Virus record (IMG/VR): IMGVR_UViG_3300042355_000024
Coordinates: 1-20,225 of that record
Origin: a virus
Reading direction: 5' to 3' (one strand)
Length of the DNA stretch: 20,225 nucleotides
Below are positions 1,782 to 11,122 of this stretch, one piece after another (position 1 is the first letter of the stretch; each line of letters begins with the position of its first letter). The notes beneath the pieces were generated by a model. It had not been told where the DNA came from and did no database searches. It worked only from the letters and a program-made list of their open reading frames with translations. The position numbers were made by a program, and so were the translations under genes.

Positions 1782-2198
1782 TTAAGCAATTCTAATAACT
1801 GCTGATGATGCTTCGTCTGGTGGTAAAGTTATAACAAATTCTATTACTGTAGTCTTATCTGAACCAAAGTCCAAAACAGCTATAGATTTATTCCCCTTGC
1901 TGGAATTATATATTAATGCACCTCTTGCCGTAAATGAGGCTGGATTCCAAGTTGGGTTACTGAAGTCAACATATGCAACCCCATCTGCAGACTTTACTGT
2001 TACATTAGTTATCAACTTTCCTCCTGCCACATATCCAGTACCTGTAATTTCATTAGTGGCTGTATATATGGTTGTTGTCTCATCTAATGATGCAAGTGCA
2101 GTATACAATGCAATGTACAAAGAGTCAGTCTCTAAGTCATGTACACCATTTAGTATCTGCTCTTTAAAGCTTGTAGTTAGTCCCTGTCTTATGGTCAT
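1782..2198 (-). CDS. Conserved phage structural protein
   Basis: A 138-residue protein. The N-terminus TTSFKEQILNGVHDLETDSL, then YIALYTALASLDETTTIYT, and the later W-N-P-A-S-F-T-A-R-G-A-L-I-Y-N-S-S-K-G-N-K segment are hallmark patterns of a widespread, uncharacterised tailed-phage family often found beside adaptor and tail genes. No catalytic motifs. The ATG at 2198 overlaps the upstream TGA stop (ATGA), indicating translational coupling to the adaptor gene. Likely a tail or neck component, by context. Confidence 0.75.
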   Translation of the reverse strand: MTIRQGLTTSFKEQILNGVHDLETDSLYIALYTALASLDETTTIYTATNEITGTGYVAGGKLITNVTVKSADGVAYVDFSNPTWNPASFTARGALIYNSSKGNKSIAVLDFGSDKTTVIEFVITLPPDEASSAVIRIA

Positions 2199-2872
2199 GT
2201 TATTTTAACCCTAACTTGACCTGATCTGTATGCATCCTGCCTTTCTAGACCATCACCCAGACGTTTGAGTTGACCCATAGCTTCTGCATACTTAGCTTCT
2301 ACATTGCCAATTAGATCCTGCTCACCCTTCATAAACAAGTAAGCCTCTCTTAAAGAGCCATAGAATAATGCTGGATCAAAGTTATCTCCTAGCCAAGTAG
2401 TACTTGCTGTAACTATAGACTCTGGATAATAGTAGTAGTGCAGCTCTACATAATATTGAACATCAGGCGTTGGACCCACAATAAAGGACAGCTCAGTAGT
2501 TACTATGGCTGGATCTGTATTAGTGGTAGTAGGCCCAAATAGAGCATAGTACTGTGGAATCCCAGTATCTGTCTTAATAGGGAATGCCGCCCTTATAAAG
2601 TTAACATCCTTATCCAGCATGTACTCATAGGCTTGGGTTGTATTGTTTATAACCGCCATTGAATAAACTGCTAAGAAATCTAAAGGTGCTGACAGATACT
2701 GGTTATTAGCTGAGACTGTACCAGTTACATTCTTACGCAGCGCTGGAATCTGAACACTGTTATATATCCTAGTCTCTGCCTGACGAACAAACGTAGGGAT
2801 ATACGCTATGAACTCCTGTTCGTAGTTTTCTGTATATGCCTGTATTGCGGCAGTAAGCTGAGTATAGTTAAT
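2195..2872 (-). CDS. Head-tail adaptor-like protein with apparent ATT start
   Basis: A 225-residue reading frame when started at ATT (2870-2872). From there it reads I/M-N-Y-T-Q-L-T-A-A-I-Q-A-Y-T-E-N-Y-E, then R-Q-A-E-T-R-I-Y, then Q-Y-L-S-A-P-L-D-F-L-A-V-Y, and later Y-Y-V-E-L-H-Y-Y-Y-Y-P-E-S-I-V and Y-G-S-L-R-E-A-Y-L-F-M-K-G. This matches my memory of the SU10-type phage adaptor family over its full length, N-terminus included. No ATG, GTG or TTG occurs in frame between an upstream stop (2900-2902) and an ATG at 2659. Starting at 2659 would remove the conserved N-terminal 71 residues and has no ribosome binding site, whereas AGGAG lies eight bases before the ATT. Adaptors bind beneath the portal and close the packaged head. 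The family call is firmer than the start. Confidence 0.75.
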   Translation of the reverse strand: MNYTQLTAAIQAYTENYEQEFIAYIPTFVRQAETRIYNSVQIPALRKNVTGTVSANNQYLSAPLDFLAVYSMAVINNTTQAYEYMLDKDVNFIRAAFPIKTDTGIPQYYALFGPTTTNTDPAIVTTELSFIVGPTPDVQYYVELHYYYYPESIVTASTTWLGDNFDPALFYGSLREAYLFMKGEQDLIGNVEAKYAEAMGQLKRLGDGLERQDAYRSGQVRVKIT

Positions 2873-2880
2873 TTTACTGA

Positions 2881-2885
2881 CTCCT
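2881..2885 (-). promoter_or_regulatory. Ribosome binding site supporting the ATT start
   Basis: AGGAG on the minus strand, overlapping the TAG stop of the upstream gene, followed by eight bases and then ATT at 2872. The spacing is ideal for initiation at that ATT. Confidence 0.6.
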
Positions 2886-3129
2886 AGCCCATTGGGCCTC
2901 TAGACATAGTTCCCTTAGTTGCGGCACCATATCCACGCATTTTAATACCAGAAGTCTTAACATCATTCTTACCTGGATCTCCTGCGCTTACGCGAGGAAC
3001 CGCTTCGCGTGGACCCAACTCAGTAGCTTTAAGAAGGTTAGGATCTCTCATCTTCTTAGGGATGTAAGGACCACCAGACATTGTATGTGGCACTGCGTAC
3101 TCAGATGCAGGCTTATTGTTCTTAGCCAT
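2884..3129 (-). CDS. Small basic phage protein with C-terminal RGPMG tail
   Basis: An 81-residue protein starting MAKNNKPASEYAVPHTMSGG at the ATG at 3129. An upstream in-frame ATG at 3153 lies deep in the preceding gene and is less likely. The chosen start overlaps the upstream stop by eight bases. The C-terminus reads S-G-I-K-M-R-G-Y-G-A-A-T-K-G-T-M-S-R-G-P-M-G; the K-[MV]-R-G-x-G-A-A-T-[KR]-G core followed by R-G-P-M is a recurrent ending of small phage proteins of unknown function. Lysine- and glycine-rich, no hydrophobic core, probably disordered. Virion association is plausible from context only. Confidence 0.75.
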   Translation of the reverse strand: MAKNNKPASEYAVPHTMSGGPYIPKKMRDPNLLKATELGPREAVPRVSAGDPGKNDVKTSGIKMRGYGAATKGTMSRGPMG

Positions 3130-3313
3130 TTTTACCATCCTGGTACATAGCACGGGCTAGGTTACGGCCATACTTCTTCATAGCATCTGTAGTGACTCCG
3201 CCTTTTTTCAAAGATAGGGTGGTGCCTTTTCCATCTTTGTGCTTTTGCTTGTCATGCTGCTTAAATGCTTTCTTAATCAAATCTACGTCTTGCTTCTTAT
3301 CTTTTTTGTCCAT
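3122..3313 (-). CDS. Small lysine-rich phage protein with KKGG motif
   Basis: A 63-residue, extremely basic protein. The first half is nearly all charged (MDKKDKKQDVDLIKKAFKQH...); the second holds L-K-K-G-G-V-T-T-D-A-M-K-K-Y-G-R-N-L-A-R-A-M, a recurrent pattern in small phage proteins. The ribosome binding site is GGAGCAGGAC just before the ATG at 3313. The K-K-G-G motif is shared with most small proteins between 5476 and 7860. Function unknown; nucleic-acid contact is possible given the charge, but there is no recognised domain. Confidence 0.75.
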   Translation of the reverse strand: MDKKDKKQDVDLIKKAFKQHDKQKHKDGKGTTLSLKKGGVTTDAMKKYGRNLARAMYQDGKNG

Positions 3314-3752: not shown

Positions 3753-4493
3753 TTATCTGTATGTGATCATGCGCGGAACAAACCGCAGTGGCGCTTTCTC
3801 TCTATCCTCATCAGCAGCCAATTGCCATGCCTCATCATATTGTGCTTTAAGCATAGGCACTCTATCAATTGCATTAGGTAGCTTAACTGACAGCATATAT
3901 GCAAGGCCACAAACAATGGCGTTCTGGAATCTAAAGGGAATTCCTTCCACATTAATACCGTTGCCCGCATCTGGCATCCTAACCAGCCGCCAGTACACTA
4001 AATAATAATATGGTGACTCTACTGTACCTTGACTAGGCGAAGGCCACACAGTGACTTGTGGGACCTGTGGCACCGCACCCTGCGCATTAGTTGTCTGTCC
4101 AGATCTACGGTTAATGTATATCTGAATAGGCCGACCCTGAGTTAACTTGTTAGGGATTGTAGAATAGGTAGAGACACTAATTCTATTAATGTTCAAATCT
4201 GTCTGGTTACTTACCTGGCCAGGACTGGTACGAATCACAGTCTCAATCAGATCTACAGTATTATCCGGCAGATCATATGTGATAGTACCCTGTATTAATG
4301 GGATTGTACCCTGCTCAATAGTCCACAGGTTTATCCCACGATTGGCCCATTCAGTTAGAAGAAAGTTAAGACTTCTCCTAGCCGTTCTAAAGTCATAACC
4401 GCTACGCAGCTCAAGGCCGCATCTCTCAAAGGCTTCTTCTATAAGCTCATTGAGTGCTGGGTTAAATGTTGATGTGGCTACTGTATATGGCAT
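3753..4493 (-). CDS. Head-tail adaptor/gatekeeper-like connector protein
   Basis: A 246-residue protein. The N-terminal helical segment A-L-N-E-L-I-E-E-A-F-E-R-C-G-L-E followed by S-G-Y-D-F-R-T-A-R-R-S-L-N-F-L and E-W-A-N-R-G-I-N-L-W-T-I-E is characteristic of a widespread phage connector family. A beta-rich middle (Y-D-L-P-D-N-T-V-D-L) and C-terminal helices (A-I-V-C-G-L-A-Y-M-L-S-V-K-L-P) follow. The overall plan (helices, beta insertion, helices) resembles phage adaptor proteins such as P22 gp4 or T7 gp11, which dock under the portal. The ATG at 4493 abuts the TAG stop of the downstream gene at 4494-4496 without overlap. Connector assignment is from family memory and context. Confidence 0.75.
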   Translation of the reverse strand: MPYTVATSTFNPALNELIEEAFERCGLELRSGYDFRTARRSLNFLLTEWANRGINLWTIEQGTIPLIQGTITYDLPDNTVDLIETVIRTSPGQVSNQTDLNINRISVSTYSTIPNKLTQGRPIQIYINRRSGQTTNAQGAVPQVPQVTVWPSPSQGTVESPYYYLVYWRLVRMPDAGNGINVEGIPFRFQNAIVCGLAYMLSVKLPNAIDRVPMLKAQYDEAWQLAADEDREKAPLRFVPRMITYR

Positions 4494-8387: not shown

Positions 8388-8540
8388 CTACGCGGGTTTA
8401 GATGCCTCAAGTCCGCTAATCTTTGCTATTAACTCAGCATTTTCTTTAGCAAGTTTGGCGGCATGTCCCATTGCAAAGTCTCTTTGGGATTCCAGAAGCG
8501 CCACAATTGTAGCAACTTCCGGATCTTCATGAGTCAACAT
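8388..8540 (-). CDS. Small helical phage protein (50 aa)
   Basis: A 50-residue protein, MLTHEDPEVATIVALLESQR... ending E-A-S-K-P-A. It should form a single long helix with heptad-like hydrophobic spacing (V-A-L-L, F-A-M, A-A-K-L-A, A-E-L-I-A-K-I), so a coiled coil is likely. The ATG at 8540 overlaps the upstream stop (TAATG), which strongly supports it as a real coupled gene. Function unknown; it may oligomerise with a virion protein. Confidence 0.7.
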   Translation of the reverse strand: MLTHEDPEVATIVALLESQRDFAMGHAAKLAKENAELIAKISGLEASKPA

Positions 8541-9268
8541 TAGACAGTAACAGCTTGCCAGTTGCCAGAAGCATCAGATACAAACAATAGTCCATCAGTA
8601 GAATCAATACCTAACGAACCCTTGCCTACACCAGAAGCAGCACCATCAACAAAATTACCTACCTTGATGACAACAGGATCATCGGCAGCATCATCAGCCA
8701 AGCGGATTTCAGCAGTTTTATACGCTATAACTCCAGAAGGACCACCAGCATCAGCAACGGGGTCTTGCATCTTCAAGTCCAGACCATATGTAAAGCCAGA
8801 ACCTGCTGTGGTTTGAGCCATTGCAACACCAAACGCTGTACGGCAAGTCGTAACACCAGAGTCACCCTGCATAAACGCCATAACAGCGGCATCACCAGAT
8901 AAAGTGTTGGTATTAATAATACCCATTACACCGGACATCAAACCATTATTAGCATATGAACCAATAACCGCAAAATTACCAGCTACACCGGTAATATGGT
9001 TAAAAGTTGTTGTAGGGGTTGTAGCAAACGGCGCACCAGTTTGAGTACGCCCAAACACACCATATGCTTCGCCCGGAAGTTCATAGTCGCTAGAACCAAA
9101 ACCTGCGGTTGGCTCGATACGCGTATAAAAACCATATGCTCCAGAGCCGGTATTTATTTCAGCTATTGAACCAGAGTTAACAGTAACTGGAGTTAAAGGT
9201 CCTTGTGAGCTTGCGTCACCGCCTTGATATCCAGACCGCACTGGGCCCGAAAAAGTAGTTTTTGCCAT
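8540..9268 (-). CDS. Putative virion protein (MAKTTFSGPV family)
   Basis: A 242-residue protein started at the ATG at 9268 (MAKTTFSGPVRSGYQGGDAS), preceded by AAGGAAA. A longer frame to 9370 exists but the extra 34 residues look like untranslated leader and lack a ribosome binding site. The M-A-K-T-T-F-S-G-P-V start is familiar from phage structural proteins. The body is Gly/Ala/Thr-rich with repeated short strands and ends L-L-F-V-S-D-A-S-G-N-W-Q-A-V-T-V. It has its own likely promoter in the 117-base gap before it, as expected for an abundant virion protein. Exact role unknown. Confidence 0.75.
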   Translation of the reverse strand: MAKTTFSGPVRSGYQGGDASSQGPLTPVTVNSGSIAEINTGSGAYGFYTRIEPTAGFGSSDYELPGEAYGVFGRTQTGAPFATTPTTTFNHITGVAGNFAVIGSYANNGLMSGVMGIINTNTLSGDAAVMAFMQGDSGVTTCRTAFGVAMAQTTAGSGFTYGLDLKMQDPVADAGGPSGVIAYKTAEIRLADDAADDPVVIKVGNFVDGAASGVGKGSLGIDSTDGLLFVSDASGNWQAVTV

Positions 9269-9360
9269 GATATATTTCCTTTGTGTTATAGCACATGCCC
9301 ATACAGTCTCTATAACGTCTGCCAAGCCAGTCTGTATGAGTCGGGGTTCTTGGTTAGTAT

Positions 9361-9389
9361 GTTTTATCACTTTATATAGGGAGTGTCAA
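9361..9389 (-). promoter_or_regulatory. Sigma70-like promoter for the 242-aa virion gene
   Basis: On the minus strand TTGACA (9384-9389) is a perfect -35; after 17 bases comes TAAAAC (9361-9366), a 4/6 match to -10. The -35 overlaps the TGA stop of the GIY-YIG gene. An AT-rich TATATAAAG within the spacer is an alternative element. Confidence 0.55.
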
Positions 9390-10102
9390 GCATACTTAAA
9401 CGCCCATCCTGTATATCTTCCACGAGTTATAGCACACCCAGATTTTAACGCTCTGTTAGCTGTAGATGGCTTAATATCTAGGGCCGCCCTGAGCTCAGAA
9501 ATGCTTGGGTATAGTGTTTGCTTACCCTGACCGTCTGAGGCCACCACAGCCTTGCTAACCTTGTCTATGAACCCTTGAGACCTAGGCTTGCCATAGTTGA
9601 AGTTCTTCTCGCCAGATAGGGACGCACTTATCTTGGCACGGGTAGATGGTGCCACAAAGTGACCCTGCATTGTCTTGATGCGCTTACTCTTCTCTTCATC
9701 TGTTTGAATGCGCGACTTGCTAGCTGCGGATATCCTGGCCTTAGCTCCTTCTGTATGAGAAAAGGTTTTGCCCCACATGGCATTTTTTTCTCCAGACATA
9801 CCCGTCTGAAATGCAATTGCTTCTGTGCCCAGGTTATAACAGTACTCCTTGCCAACATGTTCTTTAAGCCACACTGTTTCAGCAGCCAATATATCTACAC
9901 CAATCTCAAGCTCCTCAACTATTACAAATATAAATGCCGCTTCCCCATATTTGTTCCATGCGGACTGCAGATGTTTATTGGCGTGTCTTTGACTTCTCAG
10001 TGCCCACCAGTGTCTGCGCTTTCTGGCAACAAAGCTAACCGCGCTACCTACATAAAACTTGTTGTTTAGAACATTGATAATCTTGTATATGCCTTGCGTC
10101 AT
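9386..10102 (-). CDS. Free-standing GIY-YIG homing endonuclease
   Basis: A 238-residue protein. The N-terminal GIY-YIG nuclease domain has G-I-Y at residues 4-6, Y-V-G at 17-19, the basic R-K-R-R cluster near 27-30 and a probable metal-binding Glu at 75 (A-A-E-T-V-W-L-K), ending C-Y-N. Two NUMOD3-type DNA-binding motifs follow (S-G-E-K-N-A-M-W-G-K at 103-112, S-G-E-K-N-F-N-Y-G-K at 163-172). The C-terminus (198-238, Y-P-S-I-S-E-L-R-A-A-L...T-A-N-R-A-L-K-S-G) is a NUMOD1-like helix-turn-helix and ends G-W-A-F-K-Y. It should cut a specific DNA site, usually in related phages lacking the gene. It looks intact. Ribosome binding site AAGGAG before the ATG. No intron structure was recognised around it. 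Confidence 0.92.
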   Translation of the reverse strand: MTQGIYKIINVLNNKFYVGSAVSFVARKRRHWWALRSQRHANKHLQSAWNKYGEAAFIFVIVEELEIGVDILAAETVWLKEHVGKEYCYNLGTEAIAFQTGMSGEKNAMWGKTFSHTEGAKARISAASKSRIQTDEEKSKRIKTMQGHFVAPSTRAKISASLSGEKNFNYGKPRSQGFIDKVSKAVVASDGQGKQTLYPSISELRAALDIKPSTANRALKSGCAITRGRYTGWAFKYA

Positions 10103-10213: not shown

Positions 10214-11122
10214 CTAAGCCCCAGCTGAGCCAAACATACCCAGTGGATCCGACCATCCAAACGAATACCGCTCACGGCTCTTGTAGCGAACATTTCCTGT
10301 GTCAAAATCGCCATCCATTGACTGTTGCAGGGGTGAACGCTCAAAGTGCTTCATACCGTTAGGTACGTCTGTGGTCAGGAACCATGCATTGGTGTCAGTC
10401 AAGAAGTGATTGATACAGTAGCCTTCAGGTATCGAACCATTGTTCTTGATAGCATTGATGTCATTGTCAGCTGTACCAACGCGGAGGGAAGTCTCCAACA
10501 GACGGGTAGCAACGAACTGCAGTGAAGGCGGAACCACCAACTTGCGTGGGCGGCTAGCGATCAACAGGCTACGTTCATCAGTCCACAGTGAGATTTGAAT
10601 AACAGCGGCTTCCAGGGAAGTCTCATTCAAGTCAGCTGGGGTTGAAGGAATGTTGCTGTTAACGCCACCAGACACTAGCGGGTGACTTGCTGAGAACAGA
10701 GCTTGTCCATCACCACCTGGGTAGGAGGATGAGAAGCCGTTGTTCAGCGTGTTAGCCGCTTTAACTTGCTTGGTGTATGCCATAGCACGAGCCAAAGCCT
10801 TGGTGTAACGAGCTGAGAGAGAATCGTACAAGTTATCTTCGATTGCTTCTTCAGTTAGCGAGAAACCAAGAGCGATAGTTTCATGGTTGTAGCGTGAGGT
10901 CCAAGCTTCTTGGCCGTTGTCATAAGCGATGGCGGAGCCTTCATTCTTGACAGGTGCGGCTGAGAATCCAGACAGTTTTGTTTCTTCTTCGAAGGAACGC
11001 TCAGAGGTCTCAGTTTCGTAGATCTCTTTGTGCTCTTCGCCGTAACGAGCGTACTCCAAACCGAACAATGCATTCAGTCCTGGGAGCAACTCTTTCAGTA
11101 GTTGTGCGCGTGAAATAGCCAT
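10214..11122 (-). CDS. Major capsid protein (HK97-fold, by family)
   Basis: A 302-residue protein. The N-terminus R-A-Q-L-L-K-E-L-L-P-G-L-N-A-L-F-G-L-E-Y, the long-helix region L-Y-D-S-L-S-A-R-Y-T-K-A-L-A-R-A-M, the Y-P-G-G-D-G-Q-A-L-F-S-A-S-H-P-L segment and the end R-Y-S-F-G-W-S-D-P are hallmark stretches of a common phage major capsid family distantly like Mu gpT. About 415 or 420 copies of such a protein would form the shell; copy number here is unknown. It follows the scaffold and decoration genes, has the strong ribosome binding site GGGAG, and is followed at once by a terminator. No separate protease gene is seen nearby, and there is no obvious cleavable delta domain; the scaffold is a separate gene. 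Confidence 0.9.
   Translation of the reverse strand: MAISRAQLLKELLPGLNALFGLEYARYGEEHKEIYETETSERSFEEETKLSGFSAAPVKNEGSAIAYDNGQEAWTSRYNHETIALGFSLTEEAIEDNLYDSLSARYTKALARAMAYTKQVKAANTLNNGFSSSYPGGDGQALFSASHPLVSGGVNSNIPSTPADLNETSLEAAVIQISLWTDERSLLIASRPRKLVVPPSLQFVATRLLETSLRVGTADNDINAIKNNGSIPEGYCINHFLTDTNAWFLTTDVPNGMKHFERSPLQQSMDGDFDTGNVRYKSRERYSFGWSDPLGMFGSAGA

Follow-up and report, generated by a model that had tools for sequence, protein, structure and literature searches.

The window analysed here, the whole of an IMG/VR virus contig of 20,225 bases, carries on its minus strand an SU10-type adaptor gene (2195..2872, 225 aa plus stop, with the stop codon at 2195..2197) whose coding sequence, read from the position at which its relatives begin, opens with ATT. 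The protein falls within the SU10_adaptor family PF24175, matching profile positions 2-188 of 194 with its residues 2-216 (E=1e-19, 72.2 bits against a cut-off of 27). It also matches PHROG 2941 and, at the sequence level, the SU10 adaptor in PDB entry 7z47 (E=1.5e-4). In SU10 the adaptor forms a dodecamer between the portal and the tail (PMC9509320). No close DNA similarity to the window was found among phage records, and its relatives among named phages show less than 60% protein identity. A second gene on the minus strand (3753-4493) gives a marginal match to SU10_adaptor, at 27.7 bits against the cut-off of 27.

The ATT codon occupies positions 2870..2872 of the minus strand, as do all features that follow, and leads into the adaptor codons AAC TAT ACT. 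An AGGAG Shine-Dalgarno (SD) sequence at 2881..2885 lies 8 nt before it, with TCAGTAAA as the spacer, and overlaps as TAGGAG the TAG stop codon (2884..2886) of the upstream gene. The latter is a conserved neighbour with the C-terminal end ..GAATKG..RGPM(A/G); it spans 2884..3129 when begun at ATG 3129 and may start earlier (listed ORF 2884-3153). In the window and its clade 11 nt separate the two genes. Upstream, the adaptor frame is closed by an in-frame TAG at 2900..2902; from 2899 it is open, and ATG, GTG and TTG are absent until codon 72, an ATG at 2657..2659 that lacks an SD. The conserved N-terminus thus has no canonical in-frame start upstream of it or near it, and the SD is properly spaced for the ATT. 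All these details bear out the original prediction, which had placed the start at ATT 2872. Since a usable ATG, GTG or TTG is present in each other gene candidate inspected in the window, an ATT start is not a genome-wide habit. A hairpin holding the start codon in its loop (GAGUcAGUAAAAUUAACUauACUC) was considered and is not claimed, because its fold z-score was only -1.97 and its stem, judged by eye, is not kept in L011, a member of the same clade.

At least 17 IMG/VR contigs, whose metagenome numbers differ, have the same ATT (13 in the first scan, at least 17 with later scans); they comprise all members of the window's clade. Among the adaptor genes of this clade, differences reach about 104 of 678 nt (15%), mostly at third positions and with codons 2-71 included, and dS ranges from 0.27 to 1.03. 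ATT and ATG are one substitution apart, and the codon might accordingly be an artefact of sequencing or assembly, or a mutation private to this contig, with G as the true base at position 2870; yet independent contigs carry the ATT across this divergence, which refutes a sequencing error and leaves such an explanation practically no probability. The one-base error that had been raised as an alternative is thereby dismissed. A mutation, raised alongside it, fares differently in its two forms: a private one does not agree with the clade-wide ATT, whereas a fixed ancestral change of the ATG-to-ATT type stands and is compatible with an AUU start.

Within the clade, none of the three start-codon positions is variable (0/3), and 4 of the 11 intergenic bases are. 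Variable positions in codons 2-71 number 31/70 at third, 10/70 at first and 6/70 at second positions, and dN/dS is 0.07-0.14, indicating purifying selection on this segment as protein and therefore translation of the region before the internal ATG. In the upstream gene, 17 of 37 third positions vary, versus 1/36 and 2/36 at the other positions. Of the 11 Ile columns conserved in the clade, only two show third-base variation, so conservation of the third base of ATT is weak evidence by itself and gains its weight from the whole pattern. From the in-frame stop to codon 72, no near-start codon other than ATT is conserved; a GTC at -9, examined as a further candidate, is changed to GTT, GCA or GTA in clade members. 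L011 and L013 possess an in-frame GTG 33 nt upstream, within the upstream gene, which the other clade members lack. Clade members retain an SD in the form of AGGGG or AAGGG. On the strength of these sequence comparisons, the ATT is a real inherited feature of a phage clade.

The same data bear on two ways of making the adaptor that dispense with AUU. Translation could start at ATG 2659, the earliest canonical codon that the window offers in this frame, or at another internal codon, leaving the first 71 codons untranslated. Against this, codons 2-71 are conserved as protein, as their dN/dS shows, and lie within the PF24175 domain, and ATG 2659 has no SD, so that an internal start has only a very slight chance of being correct; the earlier description of this ATG as lacking a ribosome binding site and following conserved residues holds on both counts. 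Alternatively, the adaptor could be produced by a -1 frameshift as a fusion with the upstream gene, in which case it would need no start codon of its own. The adaptor frame is indeed open upstream of the ATT to 2899, shares 16 nt with the upstream gene and lies in the -1 frame with respect to that gene. However, the codons of the overlap (AGA GGC CCA ATG GGC TAG) contain by eye no X_XXY_YYZ slippery heptamer, the intergenic bases preceding the ATT are variable, and the frame relation is not conserved. In relatives, the distance from the upstream stop to the adaptor start is -4, -1, 0, 1, 2, 3, 7, 8, 9, 11 or 29 nt, and this multitude of spacings argues against a conserved frameshift link, making fusion highly improbable.

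Across 226 distinct loci of the family, the aligned start codon is ATG in 180, GTG in 33, ATT in 10, ATC in two and TTG in one. In the surveyed relatives outside the ATT and ATC groups, exactly this codon is ATG, GTG or, in one case, TTG; the ATT thus occupies the start position of the family, as had been proposed, and the comparison of start codons that was suggested at the time shows it kept in the clade with mostly ATG or GTG elsewhere. In a tree of 144 sequences the window clade forms a single group with 100/100 support, nested among ATG and GTG lineages. A second ATT (L424) and a pair of ATC loci (L363/L364) are separate from it, and well-supported branches of this tree force at least two changes for ATT. 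The predicted anti-SD pairing of the window's AGGAG is -6.8 kcal/mol, and the medians for genes starting with ATT, GTG and ATG are -6.8, -6.1 and -4.1, respectively. Pairing is stronger for non-ATG starts (rank test of ATG against all others, p = 1.3e-8, ignoring relatedness), which suggests that in the adaptor family a strong SD compensates for a weak start codon.

We therefore favour, with a probability of roughly 90% on these comparative grounds, translation of the adaptor from the AUU at 2872-2870, an ancestral ATG having changed to ATT and been kept by the descendants. The clade-wide ATT, the selection on codons 2-71 and the SD together support the genuine AUU start of the original prediction. 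The most likely mechanism is SD-guided initiation at AUU with the initiator tRNA, probably coupled to termination. The AGGAG would hold either a newly arriving 30S subunit or a ribosome that has just terminated on the upstream gene's UAG (2886-2884); the initiator fMet-tRNA would then be placed on the AUU 8 nt downstream, and the protein would begin fMet-Asn-Tyr, like its relatives. The change from ATG to ATT would have occurred in the ancestor of the clade and been retained in all descendants found. We infer that the AUU itself is read, that its use is coupled to translation of the upstream gene, and that it gives considerably less protein than AUG would and is sensitive to IF3.

The finding is a further case of a known, small kind of start codon, of which few examples are established. 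AUU starts are used by orfB of the mobile element IS911 and by gene 26* of phage T4. Initiation at IS911 orfB depends on an SD inside the preceding frame, its AUU overlapping the frameshift signal, and T4 26* is an internal restart; unlike both, the ATT described here is the main start of its gene. The E. coli genes infC and pcnB start with AUU (PMC9410913), and infC starts are ATT or ATC (PMC5472188). The adaptor resembles these in its AUU start, which in infC is likewise conserved, and such starts initiate with low efficiency and are discriminated against by IF3 (PMC9410913, PMC5472188). Unlike the adaptor, a phage structural gene with ATG- and GTG-starting relatives, infC and pcnB are cellular genes, and the AUU of infC is autoregulatory. 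The S. aureus genes cvfC1 (AUU) and ccpN (AUA) share with the adaptor a conserved non-canonical start and a strong SD; in reporter assays in poor medium, these starts reached about 10% of the activity of AUG (PMC13009471). Both are host genes, with starts located by ribosome profiling, whereas the adaptor start is deduced from sequence. Re-initiation in E. coli is sensitive to IF3, a sensitivity that is lessened by an SD (PMC2268962). By analogy with infC, pcnB and cvfC1, it is reasonable that the AUU would limit adaptor expression or tie it to IF3, as had been proposed, and since the adaptor family forms a dodecameric ring in SU10, a low rate of synthesis may be tolerated. Carried over to the phage studied here, IF3 sensitivity and a yield of about a tenth of that of AUG are expectations.

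In other branches of the family, AUU and AUC starts are linked to the insertion of an endonuclease gene, which is the more surprising part of the finding. L363 and L424 each carry, where the upstream gene and the adaptor meet, an intervening ORF that encodes a GIY-YIG domain (PF01541, E = 4.6e-7 and 1e-5, respectively). When the endonucleases were used as queries in two scans, 16 contigs with an insert at this junction emerged, belonging to three types of four, three and nine contigs (L443-L446, L447-L449 and L450-L458). The L424-type endonuclease shares about 53% identity with the second type and 37% with the L363 type. Throughout (16/16 contigs), the TAA of the endonuclease is directly followed by the first adaptor codon, ATT in four and ATC in 12, and an ending GTGGC(G/T)TAA joined to AT(T/C), with Tyr-Gln two codons on, is common to all three types. 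Because the insert types are homologous, a single ancestral insertion, rather than three, may underlie this association. The empty relative L366 reads GGTGATGA ATG AAC TAC at the junction, and, judged against it, the L363 endonuclease ORF appears to open on what was once the ATG AAC of the adaptor. Between L443 and L446 no base differs over the 164 nt that run from the stop codon of the endonuclease gene through the first 161 nt of the adaptor, and beyond that identity drops abruptly to about 69%, a breakpoint consistent with co-conversion during homing, although ordinary recombination could do likewise. An ungapped comparison had made the DNA upstream of the insert in these two contigs appear unrelated; as gapped alignment shows it to be 77-98% alike, the claim is limited to the breakpoint within the adaptor.

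The ATC types offer a TTG at codon 6 as an alternative start; for the ATT type (L424), the listed ORF that opens with a canonical codon does so no earlier than codon 63. Readthrough of the TAA is possible at loci where endonuclease and adaptor are in frame; in the window the frames differ, so readthrough into the adaptor is not possible there. Free-standing GIY-YIG (seg) genes of T4-like phages lie between conserved genes and sometimes overlap the upstream gene (PMC2988022). The adaptor-locus endonucleases similarly sit between conserved phage genes, but, unlike the seg genes, their reading frame opens at or close to the former start of the adaptor, which is left with AUU or AUC in its place. 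The literature searched yielded no report of an endonuclease insertion with this effect on a neighbouring start.

The window's ATT may itself be a relic of a homing endonuclease gene since lost from this junction, or a start change conferring resistance to the endonuclease, either being compatible with AUU initiation. In favour of this, GIY-YIG genes of three types at this junction are followed, after TAA, by an adaptor ATT or ATC in every one of the 16 contigs, and the junctions are loosely alike (GTAAAATTAAC / GTAAATCAAC). However, no endonuclease remnant was found in the window clade, where the 11 nt between the genes hold no GIY-YIG ORF; the insert carriers included in the tree lie elsewhere; and, in alignment, the plain leaders of ATG-starting loci come closest to that of the window, so that a scar or a resistant start is quite unlikely. 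The broader proposition, that AUU and AUC are footprints of a homing endonuclease that takes the adaptor ATG, after which a near-cognate start directly behind the endonuclease stop persists and can spread with the endonuclease, the window clade having lost the insert or escaping cleavage, is unlikely. For the favoured change from an ancestral ATG, the nearest leader outside the clade is that of L341, followed by L325 (CTAGGAATAAGTTAACA/ATGAACTAC versus CTAGGAGTCAGTAAA/ATTAACTAT). Both loci start with ATG and branch beside a larger group that contains the window clade. Judging from one alignment, a small deletion together with a G-to-T change at the start codon would connect their leader with that of the window. 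A conserved 29-nt leader (GTTTACAGTGACCTAAGAATAAGTTATCA or similar) runs from the upstream stop to the adaptor ATG in L289, L291, L296, L297, L300, L325 and L341.

Gene finders limited to ATG, GTG and TTG truncate or misplace the adaptor gene, an error that spreads through viral databases. A structural gene that keeps AUU through substantial divergence, with AUG a single substitution away, raises the question of why a weak start is tolerated or favoured, and the endonuclease-linked AUU and AUC starts provide a natural comparison within the same gene.

Further endonuclease-like genes were observed. In L397 and L403 a different small ORF (WDVDHIVPLQG.., HNH-like by eye) lies about 450 nt before adaptor starts of GTG and ATG; the point where the upstream gene and the adaptor meet resembles a hot spot for insertions. 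In L269 an ORF at 1-601, 36% identical to the L424 GIY-YIG protein, precedes a TTG-start adaptor that overlaps its TGA. The window itself carries a GIY-YIG/NUMOD3 homing endonuclease gene (9386-10102, minus strand) beside the major head protein gene (10214-11122), and the frame at 8540-9385 opens directly after the stop of this endonuclease gene.
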